Part shown: one piece after another, positions 34,498-61,059 of the stretch
How positions within the stretch are numbered: position 1 is the stretch's first letter
Layout of the letters: the number at the start of each line of letters is the position of its first letter
Source of the DNA: Flagellimonas hadalis
GTDB taxonomy: Bacteria; Bacteroidota; Bacteroidia; Flavobacteriales; Flavobacteriaceae
Reading direction: 5' to 3'
NCBI RefSeq assembly: GCF_007785775.2
Contig: NZ_VNIK02000001.1
Location: 360,678 to 424,677 of the forward strand
Length of the DNA: 64,000 bases
The notes under the pieces: model-generated
The model's input: only the letters and a program-made list of their open reading frames with translations
What the model was told of the DNA's origin: nothing
Database searches by the model: none
Program-made: the position numbers and the translations under genes

Positions 34498-35553
34498 TCA
34501 TTCCGCGTAGTAATCGAACGCCTTACGGAAGAGTTCTTCGGGCACTTTGATGTCCGTGACCGCATCGCCAATGGACTGGAGGAGTACAAAATTGATGTCC
34601 CCATGCGAATTTTTCTTGTCGTATTTCAAGAGTTTCAGAATGGAGTCAATATCATCCTTATCAAAAACCACTTTTTCAAAATAGTGTAAAAACGTTTCCT
34701 TGATCTCGTCAAGCGCCAATTTTGGCAAACCTTTCAATTCATGGGACAGATAACCTTCCAAGATCATGCCGACGGCGATAGCCTCACCGTGCAGAAGGGT
34801 TTTCTTGTTATGATTTTCTAGACAGTAGGATTCAATAGCATGTCCCAAAGTATGGCCAAAATTCAAGATTTTGCGCAATCCCTTCTCAGTGGGGTCGATC
34901 AACACCACATCATTCTTGATGAAAATGGATTTTTGAATACTGGAGGCGTCCGTGAAATTGTTTTTCTCCTTTAAATCAGCCCAATATGCAGCATCCCTGA
35001 TGAGTCCATGCTTTAGCATTTCCGCATACCCGCTCGTGACCTGTCTTGGATCTAGCGTTTGTAAAAATTCAGGGAACACCAATACCATTTGAGGTTGGTT
35101 GATGACCCCGATCTGGTTCTTCAAGGCTCCAAGATCAACGCCGTTTTTCCCGCCAATGGACGCATCCACCATGGAAAGCAGGGTAGTGGGAATGTTGATG
35201 AAATCGATGCCCCGTTTAAATGTGGAAGCCACAAACCCGCCAAGATCGGTGAGCACACCACCGCCAAGATTGATCAAGAGGCTTTTTCGGTCCCCATCAA
35301 AGTTGGAAAGATGTTCCCAGACCTGAAGACAGGTATGGATATGCTTGTTTTCCTCGCCGGGGTCAATTTCGAAAATGGAATCAATGGGCGCACTGAACAT
35401 TTTCTTGAATGCCGGCAAACAATGTTTCTTGGTGTTGGTATCGACCAGCAAAAAGATCTTGGAGTAATTTTTTTTGGCAATATGCTGGTTCAGGGCCGCT
35501 TGCGCCAACTCCCCGATATGTACTTCGTAGGTTTGTGATTTGACCGATTCCAT
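34498..35553 (-). CDS. aroB: 3-dehydroquinate synthase
   Basis: 351 residues; second step of the shikimate pathway, converting DAHP to 3-dehydroquinate with NAD and a metal. Seen: the NAD-binding LINLGGGVLTDLGGFVAS, IPTTLLSMVDASIGGKNGVD, and the metal ligands in LNFGHTLGHAIE and LLHGEAIAVGM. Divergent from the proline dehydrogenase gene. Length is typical. Confidence 0.95.
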   Translation of the reverse strand: MESVKSQTYEVHIGELAQAALNQHIAKKNYSKIFLLVDTNTKKHCLPAFKKMFSAPIDSIFEIDPGEENKHIHTCLQVWEHLSNFDGDRKSLLINLGGGVLTDLGGFVASTFKRGIDFINIPTTLLSMVDASIGGKNGVDLGALKNQIGVINQPQMVLVFPEFLQTLDPRQVTSGYAEMLKHGLIRDAAYWADLKEKNNFTDASSIQKSIFIKNDVVLIDPTEKGLRKILNFGHTLGHAIESYCLENHNKKTLLHGEAIAVGMILEGYLSHELKGLPKLALDEIKETFLHYFEKVVFDKDDIDSILKLLKYDKKNSHGDINFVLLQSIGDAVTDIKVPEELFRKAFDYYAE

Positions 35554-35614
35554 AATTTCAATTTCACCACTAAATAAAGACTATTTTTATAGAAAAGGTT
35601 ATAGATTCCGTACT

Positions 35615-35622
35615 TATATTTG
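35615..35622 (+). promoter_or_regulatory. Candidate -7 element of the proline dehydrogenase gene
   Basis: TATATTTG fits TAnnTTTG, 22 bases before the ATG at 35645. No clear -33 element. Confidence 0.45.
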
Positions 35623-35644
35623 GATCTTAAATAGATTACAAATA

Positions 35645-36817
35645 ATGCTGCCGAATTTTGAGAATACCGCAATAGCTTTTGAGCTGAAGACCGACTCCCA
35701 ATTGGAGCGCGCCTACTTCCTTTTTAAGATGATAGCCAATGAACCCTTGGTGCGCATAGGCACTGCAGTGACCAATTTTGCCATAAAGGCCCACCTACCT
35801 GTTGAAGGTCTGATCCGGGCCACGGTATTTGACCATTTTTGCGGTGGGGTAAATGAAGAGGATTGTCTCCCCATTATTGATAAAATGTATGAAAAAGGCG
35901 TCTGTTCCATTCTCGATTATTCCGCTGAGGGTAAGGAGGTGGACAACCAGTTCGATTTTGCCATGGAAAAGACCTTGGAGGTGCTCGATTTTGTCAAGGA
36001 AAAGGATGCCATTCCCTTTGCGGTGTTCAAACCTACCGGTTTTGGTCGATTCAAACTGTTTGAGAAAGTGAGTGCAGGCCATACGTTGAACGATAGCGAA
36101 ACAGCGGAATGGGGCCGATTGGTGAACCGGTTTGACAGGGTATGTAAAAAAGCCCATGACCTGGACGTTTCGCTGCTCATCGATGCAGAAGAAAGTTGGA
36201 TGCAGAATGCCGCCGATGACCTGGTGCTGGAAATGATGCGCAAATACAATAAACAGAAGGCCATTGTGTTCAATACCTTCCAAATGTACCGTTGGGACCG
36301 ATTGGATTATATCAAAAAACTAAGGGATATTGCCGCTTCGGAACAATTTAGCATCGGCGCCAAGGTGGTGAGAGGAGCCTATATGGAAAAAGAGAACGAC
36401 AGGGCCAAGGAAAAAGAATACCCAAGCCCCATCTGTGCCTCCAAAAAAGAGACCGATGAAAACTTTGATGCCGCCATTGACTACATGATGGACAATTTAG
36501 ATCGATTTGTACTCTTTGCAGGGACCCACAATGAGCAGAGCTGCCTCAAATTGATCTCAAAAATGCAGGAAAAGGGCATAGAGCCATCGGACAGTAACAT
36601 TTGGTTTGGCCAGTTGTTCGGGATGAGCGACCATATAACCTACAATTTGGCCGCACTGGGTTACAATGCGGTGAAATATGTGCCCTATGGCCCGGTACGT
36701 GATGTGATGCCTTATCTGATACGCCGGGCAGAGGAAAATACATCGGTAGCCGGGCAAACGTCAAGGGAGTTGGCATTGTTGCAAAAAGAACGAAAGCGCA
36801 GGAAGTTGGAGGATTAA
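35645..36817 (+). CDS. Proline dehydrogenase (monofunctional)
   Basis: 390 residues; oxidises proline to pyrroline-5-carboxylate with FAD. Conserved: VRGAYMEKEN, GTHNEQSC, and the C-terminal FGQLFGMSDHIT plus YVPYGPVRDVMPYLIRRAEEN. It carries only the PRODH domain, unlike bifunctional PutA. ATG 35645 (MLPNFEN) is chosen; the longer frame starts within the aroB promoter. Its stop codon overlaps that of the convergent DUF4258 gene by 4 bases. Confidence 0.93.
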   Translation: MLPNFENTAIAFELKTDSQLERAYFLFKMIANEPLVRIGTAVTNFAIKAHLPVEGLIRATVFDHFCGGVNEEDCLPIIDKMYEKGVCSILDYSAEGKEVDNQFDFAMEKTLEVLDFVKEKDAIPFAVFKPTGFGRFKLFEKVSAGHTLNDSETAEWGRLVNRFDRVCKKAHDLDVSLLIDAEESWMQNAADDLVLEMMRKYNKQKAIVFNTFQMYRWDRLDYIKKLRDIAASEQFSIGAKVVRGAYMEKENDRAKEKEYPSPICASKKETDENFDAAIDYMMDNLDRFVLFAGTHNEQSCLKLISKMQEKGIEPSDSNIWFGQLFGMSDHITYNLAALGYNAVKYVPYGPVRDVMPYLIRRAEENTSVAGQTSRELALLQKERKRRKLED

Positions 36818-37188
36818 TCCAAAAGGGCTGTTTCCTCAACAATCAGTTCTTCTTGGCAATTTCTGATCTGTAGTTCCATATTCTGGTCCGCAATCTTTTT
36901 TGAAACATAGTAGACCTTACAGGGTTCTGCCTTGGTGTCGCTTTTCCCAAAATCCACATTGCCATCGGTCAAAATGGATTTGACCATGATTGTGTCCCTT
37001 AATTCTTGTGGAACGGCATCTCCAAAGGAGATGGGTTTGGAGCGCATGTCTTTCAACACCCTGCAATTGGGAAAATAACAGAAATCCATGCCTTCACCAC
37101 CTGATTTTTTCTTCAAGAAGAACACCAAAAACACAATTCCAATGGACAGTCCAACTAAATACCATCCCAATCGCCTTAAAAATCCCAT
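36814..37188 (-). CDS. DUF4258-family membrane-anchored protein
   Basis: 124 residues: one N-terminal helix (LGWYLVGLSIGIVFLVFFL), then a soluble domain with Cys residues in DFCYFPNCRV and later KAEPCKVYYVS and RNCQEE. It fits the DUF4258 family, of unknown function, seen next to alanine dehydrogenase in Flavobacteriaceae. The gene begins 6 bases downstream of the ald stop, so the two are probably cotranscribed. Confidence 0.78.
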   Translation of the reverse strand: MGFLRRLGWYLVGLSIGIVFLVFFLKKKSGGEGMDFCYFPNCRVLKDMRSKPISFGDAVPQELRDTIMVKSILTDGNVDFGKSDTKAEPCKVYYVSKKIADQNMELQIRNCQEELIVEETALLD

Positions 37189-37194
37189 GCGTAT

Positions 37195-38394
37195 TTAAAA
37201 AATAAGAAAGTTAATATCGCTGTAACTCAGTCCAAACCATTCCCCCACCGATTTATTGGTGAGGATACCGTGATACATGTAAAGCCCGCTACGCAATCCT
37301 TTGTCGAAACGTAGCGAATGCTCCAAGCCGCCATCCTCACCAATTTTCAGTAGATAAGGGGTGAAAATATTGCTGATGGATATGGAAGAGGTCCGCGGAT
37401 AACGGGACGGAATATTGGGCACCCCGTAATGGATGACCCCATATTTTTCAAAAGTAGGTTTGGTGTGCGTGGTCACCTCAGAAGTTTCGAAACAACCGCC
37501 CATGTCTATGCTCACATCAATGATCACGGCTCCTTTTTTCATGTTTTCCACCATGGAACTGCTCACCACAACCGGGGAGCGGTCCTTGCCCCTCGTGGCA
37601 CCGATGGCCACATCGCACCGTTTCAAAGACTTTATCAGGTTTTTGGGTTGGATGGTGGAGGTATAGACGGTACGGTTCAGATTGATCTGTAAATTCCTGA
37701 GTTTGCTGATGGAGTTGTCGAACACCTTGATGTTGGCCCCAAGTCCCAAAGCGGAACGGGCGGCAAATTCCCCAACGGTACCTGCTCCTATGATCACTAC
37801 TTCCACTGGTGGCACCCCACTGATGTTCCCGAACATCAGCCCATTGCCCTTGCCCGTGGCGGCCATCAATTCTGAAGCAATGAGGATGGAGGAAATGCCC
37901 GCAATCTCGCTCAGGGAGCGTACGGCCGGGTAGTTGCCATCATCGTCCCGAATGAATTCAAAAGCGATGGCGGTCAGCCTTTTTTTGGCCAAGACCTCAA
38001 AATATTCTTTTCGCTGGGTCTTTATCTGCAATGCAGAAATGACAATGGTCTGGGGATTCAGCAAATCGATTTCAGATAGGGTGGGGGGCTCCACTTTTAG
38101 GATGATGGGGCACGAAAACACTTTTTTGGTATCCCGTGTGATCTCTGCTCCTGCATTGGTATAGTCAATGTCCGAAAAATTGGCACCATCCCCGGCCCCG
38201 GATTCCATGAGTACCCGGTGGCCATGTGCCGTGATGGCATTTACGGCATCGGGGGTAAGGCAGACCCTCTTTTCCTGGTATTGGTTTTCCCTTGGGATTC
38301 CTATAAATAGTTCGCCCTTTTGTTTAAGGACTTCCAAAGTTTCTTCTTGGGGCAGCAATTGCTGTTTGCTAAAGGGGGAAGAAGGCTGGTTCAT
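37195..38394 (-). CDS. ald: Alanine dehydrogenase
   Basis: 399 residues of the alanine dehydrogenase/PNT N-terminal family; deaminates alanine to pyruvate and ammonia with NAD. Family features: GIPRENQYQEKRVCLTPDAV, VLMESGAGDGANFSD, and the NAD site VVIIGAGTVGEFAARSA. It is longer than Bacillus Ald (about 370), as is usual in Bacteroidota. Together with proline dehydrogenase it suggests amino-acid catabolism in this region. Confidence 0.87.
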   Translation of the reverse strand: MNQPSSPFSKQQLLPQEETLEVLKQKGELFIGIPRENQYQEKRVCLTPDAVNAITAHGHRVLMESGAGDGANFSDIDYTNAGAEITRDTKKVFSCPIILKVEPPTLSEIDLLNPQTIVISALQIKTQRKEYFEVLAKKRLTAIAFEFIRDDDGNYPAVRSLSEIAGISSILIASELMAATGKGNGLMFGNISGVPPVEVVIIGAGTVGEFAARSALGLGANIKVFDNSISKLRNLQINLNRTVYTSTIQPKNLIKSLKRCDVAIGATRGKDRSPVVVSSSMVENMKKGAVIIDVSIDMGGCFETSEVTTHTKPTFEKYGVIHYGVPNIPSRYPRTSSISISNIFTPYLLKIGEDGGLEHSLRFDKGLRSGLYMYHGILTNKSVGEWFGLSYSDINFLIF

Positions 38395-38432
38395 AAGCAG
38401 TAAATCTGTTCAGCATACCATCAGGTATTTAA

Positions 38433-38440
38433 CAAATTTA
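38433..38440 (-). promoter_or_regulatory. Candidate -7 element for ald
   Basis: On minus TAAATTTG fits TAnnTTTG, about 38 bases before the ald start. It overlaps the end of the upstream gene. No clear -33. Confidence 0.4.
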
Positions 38441-38980
38441 CATTTTTTTTGAAAGGGTCTTTTGCCGTTGTTCGAGTTTCTCCCGTTCCTTACGCAATTC
38501 CTCTTTTTCCTTCAATATTTGGAGTTCGGTGTCCATGGCATCCAGATCTATGCCATGCACATGTTTGTCCACAAGTTTCAACCTGATGAAATAGACTACG
38601 GGTACCACTACCATGGTAACGGCGACAACATACAATATTTCATTTTCATCAATTTTACTTGAACTATAGTTCAGTACGGTAAAAAGTTGAAAACTATACA
38701 TGGAAATCGGAATCAGTATAGCGTGGTACCACCAGTTCTTGGAGGTGATAAACCATATGACCAAAAGAAGCAAGGGGACAATTTTATTGAAGTAATAATA
38801 AAATGCATCGCTTATATCATTAAAACCATTCGAAGTGAATTCTATGCCTAAAAAACTCCAAGACTGGCTGTCAATTGGCAAGTATTTATAAAAATAAAAC
38901 ATCAAAGGAGAAATGGCTATCAAGAGCGATATAATTCCTTCGATAATGAGCTTTTTCCTAATGGTAGTTTTGTCCTTCAT
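38438..38980 (-). CDS. Integral membrane protein of unknown function
   Basis: 180 residues with about four hydrophobic helices (13-30, 58-80, 84-105, 118-138) and a highly charged C-terminal coiled coil (LQILKEKEELRKEREKLEQ). No domain recognised. A+T content is higher than the neighbours. The arrangement suggests a small inner-membrane protein with a cytoplasmic coiled coil. Confidence 0.65.
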   Translation of the reverse strand: MKDKTTIRKKLIIEGIISLLIAISPLMFYFYKYLPIDSQSWSFLGIEFTSNGFNDISDAFYYYFNKIVPLLLLVIWFITSKNWWYHAILIPISMYSFQLFTVLNYSSSKIDENEILYVVAVTMVVVPVVYFIRLKLVDKHVHGIDLDAMDTELQILKEKEELRKEREKLEQRQKTLSKKM

Positions 38981-39017
38981 TACTCTAGTAAACTAAAAAA
39001 ATGAAGGAATATTGTGT

Positions 39018-39049
39018 AAAAAAATAATCCCTTCGCTAAAAGGGATTAT
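39018..39049 (-). terminator. Intrinsic terminator of the small exported peptide gene
   Basis: A perfect 10-bp stem (39024-39033 with 39040-39049), CGCTAA loop, followed on minus by a seven-T run. Confidence 0.88.
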
Positions 39050-39073
39050 CAGATTTGTCGATCGAAAAGAAAT

Positions 39074-39205
39074 CTACAATTTCTTAAGATCCCTTTTCTC
39101 GATGCTAACGGTTTGGTTCTTGTCAATCGTTACTGTTGTAGAAACAGCGGTCATTGCCAAAAAAGCAACAGCTAGCAATCCAAAAAAAACTTTTTTAGTG
39201 TTCAT
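39074..39205 (-). CDS. 43-residue exported peptide
   Basis: Reads MNTKKVFFGLLAVAFLAMTA followed by VSTTVTIDKNQTVSIEKRDL and KKL. The N-terminus is a good signal peptide (basic start, hydrophobic core, Ala-x-Ser/Thr region), leaving a mature part of about 23 residues that is charged and amphipathic. It has its own -7-like promoter (TACATTTG, 39255-39248) and a strong terminator, so a short monocistronic transcript is likely. Function unknown: a secreted peptide or the remnant of a larger protein are both possible. Confidence 0.72.
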   Translation of the reverse strand: MNTKKVFFGLLAVAFLAMTAVSTTVTIDKNQTVSIEKRDLKKL

Positions 39206-39247
39206 CGTAAAAGAGTTTTTGGTTAATAAATGAATTCATTCACAGGG

Positions 39248-39255
39248 CAAATGTA
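39248..39255 (-). promoter_or_regulatory. Candidate -7 element for the small exported peptide gene
   Basis: On minus TACATTTG fits TAnnTTTG, about 42 bases upstream of the ATG at 39205. Confidence 0.5.
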
Positions 39256-39285
39256 GGAAAATATTTCAACCTCACCTACGTTTCA

Positions 39286-39330
39286 TCGATAAAATTAGTT
39301 TTTTAACGCAAAAAATAGTCCTTTTATCGA
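39286..39330. repeat. Spaced 9-bp inverted repeat
   Basis: TCGATAAAA at 39286-39294 and TTTTATCGA at 39322-39330 are perfect inverted copies with a 27-base spacer, between the tsaE stop and the small exported peptide gene. Possible regulator site; no T tract, so not a standard terminator. Confidence 0.4.
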
Positions 39331-39381
39331 AAAATGGTTGCTCTGTACAATAATCTGGTTTGAAGATAGATGAATGAGTTG

Positions 39382-39798
39382 TTAAGAAACATTTAACTCG
39401 ATTGAGCGTGTGTTTTCATCGACAAAGTGCAGGAATACGCCCACAGCATCTTCAGGGATCAACGACTCGATTTTTTCCGGCCATTCAATGAACACCCATG
39501 TATCTTGTGCCAAGTAGTCCTCAAAACCCATGTCCAGTGCTTCCATTTCATCGTTCAACCTATAAAAATCAAAATGAAAGGCGATAAGTTTGTCGTTTTC
39601 ACCGCGATATTCGTTTACCAATCCAAAAGTGGGGCTATTGGCCTCGTCCATGGCACCGAGTTCTTTAACCATGGCCTTGACCAGTGTGGTTTTTCCCACG
39701 CCCATATCCCCATAAAAACAAAGGATCTTTCCCGGTGTGGTCCCAATAATTTCCTTGGCCACTTCCCGGATTTCGTTCAATTGAAAAGTTTTTTTCAC
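39382..39798 (-). CDS. tsaE: tRNA threonylcarbamoyladenosine biosynthesis ATPase TsaE
   Basis: 138 residues. Walker A is GDMGVGKTTLVKAM near 30; the family's SPTFGLVNEY and FDFYRLNDEMEALDMGFEDY follow. TsaE supports TsaBD in making t6A37 of ANN-decoding tRNAs. It begins 7 bases downstream of the porX stop, an arrangement typical of Flavobacteriaceae. Confidence 0.94.
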   Translation of the reverse strand: MKKTFQLNEIREVAKEIIGTTPGKILCFYGDMGVGKTTLVKAMVKELGAMDEANSPTFGLVNEYRGENDKLIAFHFDFYRLNDEMEALDMGFEDYLAQDTWVFIEWPEKIESLIPEDAVGVFLHFVDENTRSIELNVS

Positions 39799-39805
39799 CA
39801 GTGCA

Positions 39806-41350
39806 TTATTTTGCTTCCAAAACTACGAAAGGAACGATCATTTCTTCCAAGGAAACCCCTCCATGCTGGTAGGTATTCCGGTAATAGCTCACATAATGGT
39901 TGTAGTTGTTGGGGTAGGCGAAGAAGAGGTCGTTTTTCGCAAAGATGAAACTGCTGCTCAGGTTGATGTTGGGCAGGTGAATTTCCTGCGGATTTTTGGT
40001 GGCCAGCACTTCTTTTTCCTCGTAGGTAAGGCTTTTCCCTGTTTTGTAGCGCAAGTTCAAGCTGGTTTCCCTGTCCCCGATCACTTTTGAGGGCTGTTTC
40101 ACATTGATGGTACCATGGTCCGTGGTCAGGATAAGCTTCATGCCCAAAACCTGTGCCTGTTGGATGATCTCCAGCAAGGGGGAGTTCTTGAACCAACTCA
40201 ATGTAAGGGAACGGTAGGCCTTGTCGTTGGATGCCAATTCCTTCACCACCTCCATTTCGGTCTTGGAATGGGACAGCATGTCCACAAAATTATAGACCAC
40301 CACGGTGAGGTCATTTTCCTTTTGGGATTTGAAGTTTTGGGCCAATTGTTTGCCTTGTTTAAGGTTGTTGATCTTGTGATATTCCCATTTCAGGTCGAGT
40401 CCCAATCGCTTTAGTTGCGCCCCGAGGAACTCGGCCTCAAAAAGGTTCTTGCCCCCATCATCCGTGTCGTTTTTCCACCAATTGGGATACTGTTTTTCCA
40501 TATCCAGCGGCATAAGCCCTGAAAAAAGTGCATTACGGGCATATTGCGTAGCGGTCGGAAGAATACTGAAATAGGCACATTCCTGCTTCTTTTTATAATG
40601 TGCGGAAAGAATCTCTTCAAAAGCCATCCATTGGTCGTATCGAAGGTTATCGATGACCACCATCAAGGTTTTGCCTCCTTTCAGTTCGGGCTGTACCTTG
40701 CTCCGGAACAGGGTGTGTGACATGATGGGTGCATTCCCTTCCTTGAACCAGCTTTTGTAGTTTTTGTCCACAAATTTGCCGAATTGGGAATTGGCCTCCA
40801 CTTTTTGCGATTCCAAGATCTCGAACATCCCGGTATCCTCTATATGTTCCAATTGAAGTTCCCAATAGATCAATTTTTTGTACAGATCCACCCATTCCTC
40901 ATGGGAATTGACCATGGAGAGGTCCATGGCTATCTTTCGGAATTCCTGCTGGTAATTGGAGGTTGTCTTTTCCGAGATCAATCGGGAGTTGTCCAAACTT
41001 TTCTTCAGGGAGAGTAAAATCTGGTTGGGGTTCACGGGCTTGATCAGGTAATCTGCAATCTTGGAGCCAATGGCCTCATCCATGATGTACTCCTCCTCGC
41101 TCTTGGTGATCATGACCACTGGGATGGAAGCATCATACTTTTTGATCTCGTTCAAGGTTTCCAGACCGGATATGCCCGGCATGTTCTCATCCAGAAAAAC
41201 AATATCGAAAAATTGTTCCCTGATCTCTTCCAGGGCATCTTGTCCGCTTTGGCTGGTGACCACCTCGTAGCCTTTGTCCTCCAAAAAAAGTATATGTGGT
41301 TTGAGCAGATCGATCTCATCATCTACCCAAAGAATTGTAATCTTGTTCAT
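39806..41350 (-). CDS. porX: T9SS regulator PorX (response regulator with PglZ domain)
   Basis: 514 residues. The receiver domain has DDE at 10-12 and phospho-acceptor Asp54 in VFLDENMPG. The remaining two thirds is a PglZ/alkaline-phosphatase superfamily domain (TLMVVIDNLRYDQWMAFEE; ILTTDHGTINVKQ). PorX with sensor PorY controls type IX secretion and gliding genes and has phosphodiesterase activity on oligonucleotides in other species. ATG 41350 (MNKITIL) is the correct start; an extra ten codons upstream are not conserved. Confidence 0.93.
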   Translation of the reverse strand: MNKITILWVDDEIDLLKPHILFLEDKGYEVVTSQSGQDALEEIREQFFDIVFLDENMPGISGLETLNEIKKYDASIPVVMITKSEEEYIMDEAIGSKIADYLIKPVNPNQILLSLKKSLDNSRLISEKTTSNYQQEFRKIAMDLSMVNSHEEWVDLYKKLIYWELQLEHIEDTGMFEILESQKVEANSQFGKFVDKNYKSWFKEGNAPIMSHTLFRSKVQPELKGGKTLMVVIDNLRYDQWMAFEEILSAHYKKKQECAYFSILPTATQYARNALFSGLMPLDMEKQYPNWWKNDTDDGGKNLFEAEFLGAQLKRLGLDLKWEYHKINNLKQGKQLAQNFKSQKENDLTVVVYNFVDMLSHSKTEMEVVKELASNDKAYRSLTLSWFKNSPLLEIIQQAQVLGMKLILTTDHGTINVKQPSKVIGDRETSLNLRYKTGKSLTYEEKEVLATKNPQEIHLPNINLSSSFIFAKNDLFFAYPNNYNHYVSYYRNTYQHGGVSLEEMIVPFVVLEAK

Positions 41351-41366
41351 ATAGTGATTATCTTTG
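41335..41366 (+). promoter_or_regulatory. Promoter of the HD phosphohydrolase gene
   Basis: TTG at 41335-41337, 21 bases, TATCTTTG at 41359-41366, matching the Bacteroidota consensus. It overlaps the first codons of porX on the other strand, and the gene begins with TTG at 41387. Confidence 0.6.
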
Positions 41367-41386
41367 TGGGATAAAAACAAAAATCC

Positions 41387-42613
41387 TTGGTAAAAACCAA
41401 TAAGCTTAACGTTTTTAACGACCCAATTTACGGTTTTATTGGAACTCCCAACGAACTAATTTTTAGACTCATCGCCCATCCTTATTTTCAAAGGTTGCGG
41501 AGGATATCCCAAATGGGTCTTTCCTATTTGGTGTATCCAGGGGCCCATCATACCCGATTTCACCATGCTTTGGGAAGCATGCATTTGATGACAAGGGCGA
41601 TTCAGGTCCTGAAGATGAAAAACGTTGAGATCACGGAGAAGGAAGAAAACGGACTGCTCTGCGCCATACTGTTGCACGACATGGGCCACGGCCCATTTTC
41701 ACATGCGCTGGAAGGCGTAGTTGCAAAAGACCTGAGCCATGAAAAGCTGTCGCTACAGTTCATGAAAGCCCTCAATGATGAATTTGAGGGTCAACTTGAT
41801 ACCGCTATTTCCATATTCAAGGGCGATTATCCCAAACCTTATATGAACCAACTGGTGTCGAGCCAATTGGACATGGACCGTTTGGATTACCTGAAAAGGG
41901 ACAGTTTCTATTCGGGGGTCACCGAGGGCAACATCAATTCCGAGCGCCTCATTTCCATGCTCAATGTGGCCAATGGCAATTTGGTGGTGGAGGAGAAGGG
42001 AATCTATGCCGTGGAGAAGTTCCTCATGGCCCGAAGGTTCATGTATTGGCAGGTATATCTTCACAAAACGGGTCTGGCTGCAGAGCAGTTGTTGATACGG
42101 GTCATGCAGCGTGCCAAGATATTGCTCGCCAAAGGCGAAGAGCTTTCAGCGAGCCAATCGTTGTTGTTTTTTCTGAAACAGGAAGGAGCCATTGCCTTCA
42201 ACACGGAGATTCTTGAAAAATTTGCCCAACTGGATGATGTGGACATACTGGGTGCCATAAAATCATGGCAGTTCCATGATGATTTTGTGCTTTCGAAAAT
42301 GTGCCAGATGCTGCTGAACCGAAAACTATTGCACATCAAGATCAAAAACCGTCCCTCCGAACCAGAAAAATTGAACGGAAAATTGGAAAGAATCATGCAA
42401 AAACACGATCTTTCACTTGAAGAAGCCTCCAACTTTGTATTTGAGGGAGAAATATCGAACAAGGCCTATAGTATGGAACAACAGGCCATTTACATTCTCA
42501 AAAAGAGTGGAAGAATAACCGATGTGCTCAAAGAATCCGATCAGCTCAGCTTGAAGGCACTTTCCAAAACCGTTACCAAATATTACAGCTGCTACCCGAA
42601 GGAAGCTGTTTGA
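41387..42613 (+). CDS. HD-domain phosphohydrolase (dNTPase/SAMHD1-like)
   Basis: 408 residues. HD motif pieces: HTRFHHALGSMHLM, ILLHDMGHGPFSHALEG and DMDRLDYLKRDSFYSG, arranged as in dGTPase/SAMHD1-like enzymes that hydrolyse dNTPs. The start is TTG at 41387 (LVKTNKLNVFNDPIYGFI): no ATG or GTG lies between the preceding stop and the conserved NDPIYGFI start. Divergent from porX with a 36-base spacer, followed by lpxD after 23 bases. Confidence 0.9.
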   Translation: MVKTNKLNVFNDPIYGFIGTPNELIFRLIAHPYFQRLRRISQMGLSYLVYPGAHHTRFHHALGSMHLMTRAIQVLKMKNVEITEKEENGLLCAILLHDMGHGPFSHALEGVVAKDLSHEKLSLQFMKALNDEFEGQLDTAISIFKGDYPKPYMNQLVSSQLDMDRLDYLKRDSFYSGVTEGNINSERLISMLNVANGNLVVEEKGIYAVEKFLMARRFMYWQVYLHKTGLAAEQLLIRVMQRAKILLAKGEELSASQSLLFFLKQEGAIAFNTEILEKFAQLDDVDILGAIKSWQFHDDFVLSKMCQMLLNRKLLHIKIKNRPSEPEKLNGKLERIMQKHDLSLEEASNFVFEGEISNKAYSMEQQAIYILKKSGRITDVLKESDQLSLKALSKTVTKYYSCYPKEAV

Positions 42614-58038: not shown

Positions 58039-58785
58039 ATGAGATTGATTCCGGCCATAGACATTATCGAGGGAAAATGCGTTCGGCTTTCCAAAGGAGA
58101 TTATGGGACCAAAAAAGTCTATAATGAAAATCCGTTGGAAGTTGCCAAACAGTTTGAATCCCACGGTATCCAACACCTCCATTTGGTGGATCTAGATGGC
58201 GCCAAGTCCAAACACATTGTCAACCATAAAGTATTGGAAAGCATAGCTTCCCGAACCAACCTCAAAATTGATTTTGGAGGAGGATTAAAATCGGACGAAG
58301 ACCTGAAAATCGCCTTTGAAAGTGGAGCTTCGCAAATTACTGGAGGCAGCATAGCTGTTAAGGGCAGGGACACCTTCTTGGGCTGGTTACAGACCTATGG
58401 CCCAGAAAAAATCATTTTGGGAGCTGATGCGAACAACGAAAAAGTGGCCGTGTCGGGCTGGTTGGAAGAATCCGAACAGGAATTGGTTCCATTTATCCAA
58501 CATTATCAGCAGGAAGGCATTCACTATGTGATCTGTACGGATATTAGCAAAGATGGGATGTTGCAAGGACCTTCATTCGATTTGTACCAAAAAATCCTGT
58601 CCCGATCGGCAGCAGGGTTGAAATTAATAGCCAGCGGGGGCATTTCTACCTTTGGCGAACTTCCAAAGCTTGCCGAAATTGGGTGCGAGGGAACCATTAT
58701 TGGCAAGGCCATTTATGAAAATAGAATCAGTTTAAAACAATTGGAACGATACATTCTTGAAAATGGACAAGGAACAAGAGCTTAG
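58039..58785 (+). CDS. hisA: ProFAR isomerase
   Basis: 248 residues, (beta-alpha)8 barrel. It opens [20 protein letters not shown]; the second catalytic Asp is in [15 protein letters not shown], with [10 protein letters not shown] and [11 protein letters not shown] phosphate loops. Its 3' end overlaps the next ORF by 23 bases. Confidence 0.96.
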
Positions 58786-59278
58786 GGATGAACTGATCTG
58801 GAACACGGGCTATCGAATGAACGAAAGCCTTCGTATGATCAAAATCTGTTTGGATAAATTGCCCGAGGACAAGATTTGGCAGAAGCCCAACGAGTCCAGC
58901 AACAGCATTGGCAACCTGATCCTGCATTTGTGTGGCAACATCACCCAATATGGGATTGCTTCCATCAAAAATGAGGAGGACAACCGAAAAAGGGACGAGG
59001 AGTTTGAAGCCACATCGGGGTACACCAAAGCGGAACTGATCCAAAAACTGTCCGACACCATTGACGAGGCAAAAAGGGCATTTTATGAAGCTCCCTTGGA
59101 TGAACTGCTGCGTAAAAGATTTGTGCAGGGATTTAATTTTTCAGGGGTGGGAAACATCATCCATGTCACAGAACACTTGTCCTATCATACGGGGCAGATT
59201 GCCCTTTGGACCAAACTATTGGAAAACAAGGATTTGGGCTTTTATGATGGTGTGGATTTAAATGTAAAGAACGAATAA
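58763..59278 (+). CDS. DinB/DUF1572-family protein in the his operon
   Basis: 171 residues, DinB-like helical bundle. Candidate metal His in LILHLCGN and in [19 protein letters not shown] 58763 overlaps hisA by 23 bases. It ends exactly one base before the first repeat of the GIY-YIG cassette. Unknown role; it is distinct from the DinB gene at 33552. Confidence 0.85.
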
Positions 59279-59308
59279 CGTCATGCCGAATTTGTTTCGG
59301 CATCGCAT
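59279..59308 (+). repeat. Hairpin repeat A, GTCA family
   Basis: Perfect 8-bp stem (59283-59290 with 59296-59303), 5-base loop TTTGT, flanked by CGTC and CGCAT. 21 of 30 positions match the reverse complement of repeat B. Confidence 0.75.
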
Positions 59309-59312
59309 AGGA

Positions 59313-59591
59313 ATGGAACAAAGCTTTATTTACATCATGACCAATACGTACAGAACAACATTTTATATTGGGATGACTTCAAATTTAACCAAAAGGGTAG
59401 TGGAACACCAAGAAGGAAGTGGCTCAAAGTTTACTAAAAAGTATAATCTGACAGATTTGGTGTATTTTGAAGTTTTCTCGGATATCGATCAAGCAATTGC
59501 AAGGGAAAAACAATTGAAGAACTGGCACCACGATTGGAAAGTTAATTTGATCAAAGAACAAAATCCAACATTACGAACATTGGATTACTAA
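59313..59591 (+). CDS. Small GIY-YIG nuclease
   Basis: 92 residues, a complete minimal GIY-YIG domain. The two tyrosine motif is FIYIM...TTFYIGMTSN, the catalytic Arg is in LTKRVVEH and the Glu in REKQLKNWHHDWK. ATG 59313 (MEQSFIYI) is preferred; an in-frame ATG at 59283 falls inside hairpin repeat A. Such small nucleases are dispersed in Flavobacteriaceae genomes and are often found without a host system. Here its 3' and 5' ends are one and four bases from hairpin repeats, suggesting that repeats and nuclease move together. Confidence 0.9.
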   Translation: MEQSFIYIMTNTYRTTFYIGMTSNLTKRVVEHQEGSGSKFTKKYNLTDLVYFEVFSDIDQAIAREKQLKNWHHDWKVNLIKEQNPTLRTLDY

Positions 59592-59592
59592 A

Positions 59593-59622
59593 ATGAGACC
59601 CTGAAGCAAGTTCAGGGTGACG
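59593..59622 (-). repeat. Hairpin repeat B, GTCA family, inverted copy
   Basis: Perfect 8-bp stem (59598-59605 with 59611-59618), loop GCAAG. Compared with A read in the same direction, three stem positions on each arm differ and all keep base pairing (T-A to C-G, G-C to C-G, C-G to T-A). Confidence 0.75.
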
Positions 59623-59629
59623 ATAAATT

Positions 59630-60385
59630 ATGCTCACAAAACGAATCATACCCTGTCTGGACATCAAAGACGGACGCACCGTGAAGGGTGTCAATTTTGT
59701 GGACCTTCGGGATGCCGGAGATCCTGTGGAATTGGCTTCCATTTATGCCAAGGAAGGTGCAGATGAATTGGTCTTTTTGGATATTTCCGCCACAGAGGAA
59801 AAGCGAAAGACCTTGGCCGAACTGGTCTATCACGTAGCGGAGACCATCAACATACCATTTACGGTGGGCGGTGGTATTTCTTCGGTGGAAGATGTGGATA
59901 TTTTGCTCAAAAATGGAGCGGACAAAGTTTCCATCAACTCTTCAGCAGTAAAAAGACCGGAGCTCATCAACGAGCTGGTGGCCAAATTTGGTTCCCAGTG
60001 TATTGTGGTCGCCATCGATGCCAAACAGATTGATGGGGTTTGGAAAGTGCACTTGGTGGGAGGAAAAGTTCCAACCGAGATCAATCTATTTGAGTGGGCC
60101 AAAGAAGTGGAAGAGCGGGGAGCAGGGGAGATTTTGTTCACTTCCATGGACCACGATGGCACCAAAAATGGGTTTGCCAACGAAGCCTTGGCCAAGTTAT
60201 CCGAATTGGTGAACATTCCCATCATTGCATCGGGCGGTGCCGGGACCATTTCCCATTTTACCGATACCTTTGTGGAAGGAAAAGCAGATGCCGCCTTGGC
60301 AGCCAGTGTCTTCCATTTCAAGGAGATTGAAATACAAGATTTAAAGAACGAATTGAAGAAGGAAGGGATTCCTGTTAGAGTATAG
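59630..60385 (+). CDS. hisF: Imidazole glycerol phosphate synthase, cyclase subunit
   Basis: 251 residues, (beta-alpha)8 barrel. Catalytic Asp11 in [16 protein letters not shown] and Asp in [25 protein letters not shown] and [11 protein letters not shown] phosphate loops. Forms the synthase with HisH. Separated from the rest of the operon by the GIY-YIG cassette. Confidence 0.96.
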
Positions 60386-60393
60386 TTGATGGT

Positions 60394-60442
60394 CACATCT
60401 AGATGTCATCCTGAGCGCAGTCGAAGGAGCTGTCGAGATGTG
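60394..60442 (+). repeat. Intergenic GTCA-family hairpin (hisF-hisI)
   Basis: CACATCT (60394-60400) pairs with AGATGTG (60436-60442), enclosing GTCATCCTGAGCGCAGTCGA (60405-60424) and AAGGAGC. The core GAGCGCAGTCGA is identical to that at 54825-54836. The head GTCA-N-CCTGA resembles repeat B read in reverse complement, suggesting one superfamily. Confidence 0.65.
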
Positions 60443-60462
60443 GTTTCAAAAAACAATAGCGT

Positions 60463-61059
60463 ATGAAAATAGATTTCGACAAAAACCCAGAAGGCCTGGT
60501 ACCGGCCATCATCCAGGATGCGAAGACCAAGAATGTGCTCATGCTGGGCTATATGGACCAAGAAGCATTCGATACTACCCAGAAAACGGGAAAAGTGACC
60601 TTTTTCAGTCGGTCCAAGCAACGGCTTTGGACCAAAGGCGAGGAAAGCGGCAATTTTCTGAACCTGGTCGACCTAAAGGTCGATTGCGACAACGATACCC
60701 TTTTGGTCAGCGTGAACCCCGTTGGGCCTACCTGTCACACAGGAACAGACACGTGTTGGGCGGAGGACAACGATGAAACCTATGGCTTTTTGTCCACCTT
60801 GGAAAACATTATCGAATCCCGAAAAAATGATCCCGACAATCCAGATAGCTACGTGGCATCCTTGTTCCGAAAAGGCATCAACAAAATAGCCCAAAAAGTA
60901 GGGGAGGAAGCTGTGGAGACCGTTATTGAGGCCAAGGACAACGACGACGACCTTTTCCTGAATGAAAGTGCCGACCTATTGTTCCACTACCTCATCTTGT
61001 TGAAGGCCAAGAACTTTAAGCTCAGTGACGTGGTCAATATTTTGGAGCAGCGACACTGA
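60463..61059 (+). CDS. hisIE: Bifunctional phosphoribosyl-AMP cyclohydrolase/phosphoribosyl-ATP pyrophosphatase
   Basis: 198 residues. HisI part: MLGYMDQEAFDTTQKTGKVT, FFSRSKQRLWTKGEESGN, and metal ligands VDCDNDTLL and GPTCHTG. HisE part: helical, KGINKIAQKVGEEAVETVIEAKD and ADLLFHYLILL. Catalyses steps 2 and 3. Last gene of the operon; 13 bases separate it from the convergent head-GIN gene. Confidence 0.96.
   Translation: MKIDFDKNPEGLVPAIIQDAKTKNVLMLGYMDQEAFDTTQKTGKVTFFSRSKQRLWTKGEESGNFLNLVDLKVDCDNDTLLVSVNPVGPTCHTGTDTCWAEDNDETYGFLSTLENIIESRKNDPDNPDSYVASLFRKGINKIAQKVGEEAVETVIEAKDNDDDLFLNESADLLFHYLILLKAKNFKLSDVVNILEQRH

Follow-up and report, generated by a model that had tools for sequence, protein, structure and literature searches.

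Two described systems come closest to the locus reported here: the REPtrons, in which a RAYT (TnpA-REP) gene is paired with GTAG-tagged REPs, and the CGTC-tagged REPs. Where several families of GTAG REPs coexist, REPtrons are repeat-specific (PMC3733652, in the part drawn on here). According to the same part of that catalogue, CGTC REPs carry a terminal CGTC, TGTC or CCTC tag outside an 8- or 9-bp stem with a 4- or 5-nt loop, the stem almost invariably starting with AT and the tail being mostly CCA; they occur mostly as head-to-head dimers, heterodimers are common, and Bacteroidetes are among their hosts (Di Nocera et al., 2013, PMC3733652). These pages further state that CGTC REPs "apparently lack a dedicated transposase", no transposase gene flanked by CGTC repeats having been found (PMC3733652). 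On the side of the nucleases, a survey of the GIY-YIG superfamily asks whether other members may be molecular parasites and, in the portion of its text available, has no occurrence of 'palindrom' (PMC1564403), and a REP survey has neither GIY nor RAYT in its main text (PMC12306157). Our literature search, outside which lay most subscription papers and all bioRxiv preprints, found no description joining GIY-YIG nucleases with REPs.

In the window, by which we mean the whole 64-kb stretch of DNA that was analysed, a GIY-YIG gene occupies the spacer of a head-to-head CGTC-REP dimer just upstream of hisF. We consider it probable, with some reserve, that this cassette is a selfish element built like a REPtron, with a single-domain GIY-YIG endonuclease where a REPtron has its RAYT tyrosine transposase. 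As read from the sequence, the cassette spans 59279-59622 (344 bp) and consists of REP A, a gene for 92 amino acids and the inverted REP B. The operon gene upstream is hisA (58039-58785, plus strand; TIGR00007, 245.6 bits), and directly before the cassette lies an ORF (58763-59278, plus strand) of no NCBIfam family, which we take to be DinB-like and which is found 5' of hisF in many genomes of the genus. REP A (59279-59308, plus strand; CGTCATGCCGAATTTGTTTCGGCATC from 59279) comprises the tag CGTC, an 8-bp stem ATGCCGAA/TTCGGCAT, a 5-nt loop and a tail to TCGCAT. The nuclease gene (59313-59591, plus strand; PF01541) runs from an ATG at 59313 to a stop at 59589-59591, this start being chosen by alignment with relatives, and the mechanical ORF starts in frame at 59283, inside REP A. 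REP B (59593-59622, minus strand; core GTCACCCTGAACTTGCTTCAGGGTC at 59597-59621, tag running to 59622) has another stem, making the pair a heterodimer, and hisF (59630-60385, plus strand; TIGR00735, 360 bits) follows directly with its ATG at 59630. The close packing claimed in the first-pass annotation holds at each boundary, with REP A beginning at 59279 right after the stop codon TAA (59276-59278), the gene ending at 59591, one base before REP B, and the tag of REP B ending at 59622, 7 bases before hisF; the claimed inversion holds likewise, the two repeats being opposed with their CGTC tags outward. A repeat of another type, GTCATCCTGAGCGCAGTCGAAGGAGC, lies at 60405-60430, between hisF and the next ORF.

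Judged by their sequence, both repeats fit the published CGTC class. The tag stands at 59279-59282 and its complement at 59619-59622, both stems are of 8 bp and both loops of 5 nt; the stems start with AT in REP A and AC in REP B and are followed by CGCA and CTCA, near but not equal to CCA. A degenerate REP pattern allowing three mismatches finds two matches in the window, REP A and REP B, each with 0 mismatches, against a mean of 0.21 in shuffled windows, 2 of 100 of which reach two. Across the complete 4.07-Mb genome, GTCANNCYGAANYYGNTTCRGNNTC is matched 8 times when up to one mismatch is tolerated, and the same pattern reversed 0 times. Of the 8 matches, two bracket the GIY-YIG gene, two form a gene-less head-to-head dimer (C1:700569/700612) and four lie on C6, C23, C45 and C57. 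Across 60 genomes of the genus the count runs from 0 to 98 REPs per genome, and these dispersed, multicopy repeats occur mostly as head-to-head dimers: in the 16 of the 60 with complete REP lists (281 REPs), 73 of the 80 neighbouring pairs less than 110 nt apart are head-to-head. Hairpins of this kind might serve as terminators or mRNA stabilisers for the nuclease gene or the operon, roles that have been hypothesised for REPs (PMC3733652, part consulted), and they do fold stably (REP A -13.2 kcal/mol, REP B -12.6 kcal/mol). However, a hairpin also stands 5' of the start codon, both tags face outward, no T-run follows repeat B, Rfam gave no RNA motif match in 59200-60500, and the subfamily-linked repeat types described below would go unexplained, which leaves this reading barely probable at all. 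Two further observations concern the repeats themselves. At L010, L019, L022, L245, L261, L271 and L274, some REPs have another palindrome (of CCTGCC..GGCAGG type or TCCGCCAGCTGGCGGA) where the loop would be, which looks like insertion of one palindrome family into the loop of another; and at G005:C1 863883-864425, three REPs spaced by 246 and 272 nt all point the same way and may form a tandem array, none of the listed GIY-YIG matches falling between them.

The window protein is likely a DNA-cutting enzyme, its sequence being that of a bare GIY-YIG domain. It matches PF01541 at 61.3 bits (cut-off 22.6), which places it in the GIY-YIG superfamily, and no second Pfam domain was found in it. Residues Y18, G20, R28, E65 and N84, which we take to be the catalytic Tyr, Gly, Arg, Glu and Asn, are invariant in alignments of 10 and of 22 rows. 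No NCBIfam model matched a query lacking the first 8 residues; relatives with solved structures are two UPF0213 proteins (PDB 1zg2, 1ywl) and the UvrC nuclease domain (PDB 1yd6). Six of nine gene pairs, four of them within subfamily A (defined below), gave an estimate of dN/dS, and its range of 0.08-0.21 indicates purifying selection that has kept the protein functional. A role as a defence gene was also considered and gave no PADLOC match. PF01541 occurs at 6 places in the same genome (G000), three being small genes, that of the window included, and three lying within ORFs of 448-610 aa; a check for hairpins at the two other small genes finds them on both sides of L003, and a palindrome on one side of L001. 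At L001 (G000:C23, 1440-1863), the GIY-YIG gene lies between a 5' partial tRNA-Leu copy and an intact tRNA-Leu (1779-1863), and the partial copy is split between GGTGGAA and TTGGTAGACAC by a 20-bp palindrome, CCTGCCTACCGGCAGGCAGG, which looks like a clean insertion without target duplication. Elsewhere in the genus, G047:C6 holds at least three GIY-YIG matches in about 7 kb (34581-41637), one of which, L293, is just before a gene that by eye is trpE-like.

REPs crowd around relatives of the window gene in many phyla. Around 147 genes at 141 loci, REP density is 6.83 per kb at 0-100 nt, 2.1 at 100-200, 1.17 at 200-300, 0.39 at 300-400 and about 0.1 beyond; in intergenic DNA only, it is 6.49 per kb within 200 nt against 0.46 per kb beyond 400 nt, a 14-fold excess within the same loci, which are partly orthologous or duplicated and hence non-independent. 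The near and far intergenic densities are 7.92 vs 0.17 in the genus set, 6.48 vs 0.34 in the named set and 5.42 vs 1.26 in the phylum set, with identical proteins recurring across sets (L019/L105, L028/L106, L120/L189, L134/L207, L176/L209, L196/L239). The named set comprises the best 80 loci of a longer match list ranked by likeness to the window protein, two of them without a phylum. Among these best 80, a CGTC-type REP lies within 150 nt on at least one side of 66, on both sides of 43 and on neither side of 14, and 13 of the 14 named phyla have at least one REP-positive locus. When one positive per genus or title is drawn from them (n = 58), 73 of 96 tags point outward and 30 of 38 pairs of flanks are mutually inverted. 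GIY-YIG genes without flanking hairpins, which the first-pass annotation would have counted against its proposal, are not the general picture: flanking hairpins are frequent.

Starting from the repeats leads back to the gene. In the 16 genomes with complete REP lists, 11 REP pairs are 110-999 nt apart; a GIY-YIG gene lies in 7 of them and in 5 of the 5 that are head-to-head, the five representing two independent sites (the hisF junction three times, trpB-trpA twice). Subfamily A, at 69% identity or more, is present in 19 of the 60 genus genomes, that of the window included. Its carriers have a median of 17 REPs vs 8 in the other genomes (one-sided p 0.011, a modest difference uncorrected for kinship), and genomes with zero REPs number 0 of 19 carriers and 5 of 41 others. 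It tells against the REPtron-like reading that some genomes are rich in REPs without subfamily A (G005, 98 REPs; G029, 74; G039, 29; and G022, 20, in which the query finds no match); there, GAA-type genes such as L306, from another GIY-YIG subfamily with GAA-type hairpins, may do the work, or the gene was possibly lost. As a separate candidate, a RAYT acting in trans is disfavoured, PF01797 (Y1 transposases of the RAYT/IS200 family) being undetected in 50 of the 60 genus genomes, including G000 and the REP-rich G005, G029, G041, G045 and G048; it is present in the other 10, four of which are subfamily-A carriers (G043, G050, G051, G058).

The strongest point of the association is its specificity, and our confidence in the REPtron-like reading rests on the tests of it. 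Two hairpin classes, defined after the hairpins had been seen and with mixed flanks assigned to the nearest hairpin, have GAA/TTC next to the loop (107 genes) or are of GC type (30 genes). These 137 genes remain of 161 once 10 without hairpins and 14 classed as 'other' are set aside; on their poorly resolved tree we count 4 changes of class, whereas 300 shuffles give 27 on average and never fewer than 22. We also compared flanks directly in a genus set of 71 genes, 12 subfamilies and 18 sites, represented by 19 combinations (L034 excluded); some of the genus genes were picked by hand from the list of genus matches rather than at random. Upstream flanks score 13.3 on average against their own downstream flank and 8.37 (sd 0.66) when permuted, with 0 of 20000 permutations reaching 13.3; flanks of the same subfamily at different sites score 22.9 (9 pairs) and those of different subfamilies 9.55 (161 pairs), a same-site pair, L031/L039, whose score of 41 comes from shared host sequence, being kept apart. 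In a similarity comparison of 16 representatives the own flank was best in 8, which reflects how often paired REPs have different stems.

Single genomes and single sites convey the same pattern. G048 holds several pairs: subfamily A with CTGAAC..GTTTCAG, an MSFYVYII type with TTTCCGCGAAGGCGGAAA, a PYFIYITTN type with GTCATTTCGA..GAGAAATC and a GKYYVYILTNQHKT type with GTCATGCTGAGCGTAGCGAAGCATC. At the trpB-trpA junction, subfamily A comes with A repeats (L031, L033) and another subfamily with B repeats (L039). The pairing is not one to one: hairpins of the GAA type accompany both subfamily 0 and subfamily 10, the CCTGCG types of subfamilies 2 and 5 resemble each other, and no matching pair flanks L001. 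Perhaps REPs simply gather in intergenic space, where a dispensable small gene would collect them without any functional tie; REPs and GIY-YIG genes are indeed both intergenic, and some loci are one-sided or REP-free. Such passive company does not lead one to expect the 14-fold excess relative to the remaining intergenic DNA at these loci, the outward orientation, subfamily-linked repeat types inside one genome, a repeat that differs with the gene at trpB-trpA, or the reverse test at 5 of 5 at two sites, and we hold it to be highly unlikely. The analogy that the first-pass annotation drew with REPs and RAYTs gains support, in that other GIY-YIG genes are often hairpin-flanked, the hairpin type follows the subfamily, and empty junctions exist.

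Presence of the cassette at the hisF junction is patchy across the genus. A hairpin finder places a hairpin no further than 150 nt from the gene in all 19 carriers of subfamily A (one copy, in G057, is frameshifted), on both sides in 14 and on one side in the others; by eye, some of the hairpin-negative sides show decayed copies. The junction upstream of hisF could be read in 59 of the 60 genomes, with the gene present in 17 and absent from 42. The latter include bare junctions (G007, G054, G035, G008 and others), junctions holding REP dimers only (G039, G002, G029, G005, G034) or a single REP (G012), junctions that read as REP scars (G011, G038, G033) and junctions with other sequence of about 360-380 nt (G001, G010, G017). 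On a weakly resolved tree of 42 of the 59 genomes (17 were omitted, the upstream-protein motif not being found), presence changes at least 12 times, which is not below the level of shuffled labels (mean 12.9), and the comparison within the genus makes scars of loss at least as visible as gains. A single site shared by all relatives, the other observation that the first-pass annotation would have held against mobility, is borne out for 17 of the 19 genus carriers, which have the gene at the hisF junction, but not for the 2 that carry it elsewhere (G033, G028), nor in other genera, where trp and bio operons are occupied. That most genus copies share one junction tells against movement as a unit, since these copies may be inherited.

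The sequence ATAA, reported in the first-pass annotation on both sides of the cassette, is indeed there (59275-59278 and 59623-59626), but its reading as a target duplication is supported on neither side. The left copy is the end of the upstream stop codon and is also present in empty sites; as to the right copy, G044 and G047 have a further REP dimer, absent from the window genome, and there the ATAA comes after it, the sequence following that dimer being GACGATAAATT-ATG. This dimer is probably missing in G000 through deletion between REP copies. An empty site with a single ATAA had been predicted and does exist, in the bare junction of G007, but that ATAA is the stop-codon end and does not discriminate. 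The cassette likewise departs from a classical insertion sequence with terminal inverted repeats (TIRs) and target-site duplication: its inverted repeats are the REPs, and no duplication is supported.

Beyond the hisF junction, subfamily A and its nearest kin stand in several unrelated biosynthetic operons (his, trp, bio). We surveyed the neighbours at 32 loci, leaving out the frameshifted L034; two of them, L105 and L106 (Muricauda sp., Flagellimonas pelagia), duplicate L019 and L028, their proteins being identical to those of G045 and G047. These two are the named relatives that come out as near-identical, so that the window probably belongs to their genus. Neighbour names rest on NCBIfam matches of 70-residue pieces, whose scores, as fragments of this length would lead one to expect, stay below the cut-offs set for whole proteins. 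The DinB-like gene and hisF flank 18 of the 32 loci, and L114 lies between two members of the hisF cluster, presumably hisA and hisF; trpB and trpA flank L031, L033, L113 and L115, trpB lies upstream of L110, and trpD and trpC flank L112; bioD and bioA flank L107, L109, L111 and L185, and bioF and bioD flank L108; L116 and L117 have other neighbours. The GIY-YIG gene is codirectional with its neighbour in 63 of 64 neighbour calls, and for this reason it probably rides on host operon transcription. Genes at the same site group across genera on the tree (L031, L033, L110, L113), a pattern that suggests infrequent movement and long residence.

Occasional movement of REP-gene-REP as a unit is nonetheless likely. 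Closely similar units lie on four contigs of G222 (L234, L236, L237, L238), and two more are found in G113 (L226, L228). At L238, whose gene has an internal stop, the shared sequence stops at the REPs, a short AT-rich stretch to the left also being similar, and these limits make an insertion at the level of the cassette likely. The other G222 and G113 copies sit inside a larger element with terminal inverted repeats TTGTAGATGTYAGRTAATTC, which may have multiplied them; its gene-less copies have a single palindrome in place of REP-gene-REP. Copies of this multicopy element occur at L226, L228, L234, L236, L237 and several of L274-L288 (G113, G222, G159, G085). It could be argued from these genomes, where most G222 and G113 copies read lie in the TIR element, that other elements, this one of the f23 genomes for example, carry the cassette along and that REP-gene-REP is not itself mobile. 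No such inverted repeats were found around the window cassette or seen by eye around the genus cassettes, however, and the L238 cassette lies outside the TIR element with its boundary at the REPs, so that we give this possibility a very slim likelihood.

We also looked for clean empty sites of other REP dimers, and exact ends or a duplication were seen at 0 of 6 sites of G044 compared with 20 stretches of relatives. At L214, L218 and L219, the relatives read lack the dimer, in surroundings that are rearranged; L216 is occupied in G000; and at L222 and L220, G000 and G007 carry a different repeat, G047 having the same dimer at L222. This last spot (L222, G044:C19; also L321 and L322), where a REP dimer stands in place of the different repeat pair of G000 and G007, lies by eye inside a trpF-like coding sequence and is a reused insertion place.

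How might such a cassette move? GIY-YIG enzymes are considered to hydrolyse DNA without a covalent intermediate, which would leave strand joining to the host, and joining by the host would fit the absence of a visible target duplication. In the REPtron-like reading, we infer that the nuclease drives movement of the repeats: it would recognise the hairpin characteristic of the REP family it is paired with, probably while replication leaves the REPs single-stranded or extruded, and would cut at or near the outward CGTC tags, after which the cassette would be copied to a new place by host break repair. A gene-less REP dimer would be a non-autonomous derivative, copied likewise.

A related possibility reverses the roles of gene and repeat. 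In a homing-type invasion, the repeats would be a target spread by something else, and the nuclease, cutting REP dimers of its own type, would spread itself alone, the gene being copied in by repair with the REPs as short homology arms. The gene does sit inside a REP dimer where the spacer would be, and empty junctions exist in relatives; the PHROG matches are homing endonucleases, weak ones (E 1.8e-4 and 8.7e-4); gene-less dimers are common, also in genomes without subfamily A; and REPs have been described as insertion targets for IS elements (PMC1525189, part consulted). On the other hand, homing leaves the spread of the REPs unexplained, no transposase being tied to CGTC REPs in the catalogue pages cited (PMC3733652) and Y1 transposases being undetected in 50 of the 60 genus genomes, and homology arms the length of a REP, about 25 nt, offer recombination little to work with. 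We regard homing as unlikely, and as the alternative to take seriously.

Returning to the REPtron-like element, a wider proposal is that GIY-YIG endonucleases are the enzymes, so far missing, that mobilise CGTC REPs as well as several other abundant bacterial hairpin repeats: each of many subfamilies would move the repeat family it is paired with, the hairpin guiding the cut and the host repairing it. We offer this tentatively, as an idea that falls somewhat short of probable. If true, it would amount to a transposition route unrelated to HUH or DDE chemistry and would assign a function to the large group of small GIY-YIG genes that still lack an explanation. The partnership of gene and repeat may explain the spread of a common bacterial repeat class: the CGTC catalogue, in its cited part, leaves that spread open (PMC3733652), and the subfamily-linked pairing gives it a named candidate enzyme.

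Set against known systems, the window repeats resemble the CGTC REPs of the catalogue in outward CGTC tag, 8-bp stem, 5-nt loop, heterodimeric arrangement and Bacteroidetes host (PMC3733652, part consulted), and differ in the AC start of the REP B stem and in tails that only approach CCA. A nuclease gene fills the dimer spacer here, whereas the consulted pages of the catalogue report no repeat-flanked transposase (PMC3733652). With GIY-YIG homing endonucleases and UPF0213 proteins the window protein shares its catalytic domain and, with the latter, the form of a small free-standing protein; unlike them, its gene is bracketed by REPs, and no intron or intein was seen. The UvrC N-terminal nuclease domain (PDB 1yd6) belongs to the same superfamily, but UvrC is a large repair protein and the window protein a stand-alone domain. 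REPtrons share with the cassette an enzyme gene flanked by REPs, repeat-specific pairing and gene-less dimers elsewhere in the genome. They differ in that a RAYT is an HUH/Y1 transposase paired with a GTAG tag, whereas the window has a GIY-YIG enzyme and a CGTC tag in a genome, G000, where the Y1 domain was undetected. The architecture is that of a REPtron, and within the literature covered the enzyme class is new for it.
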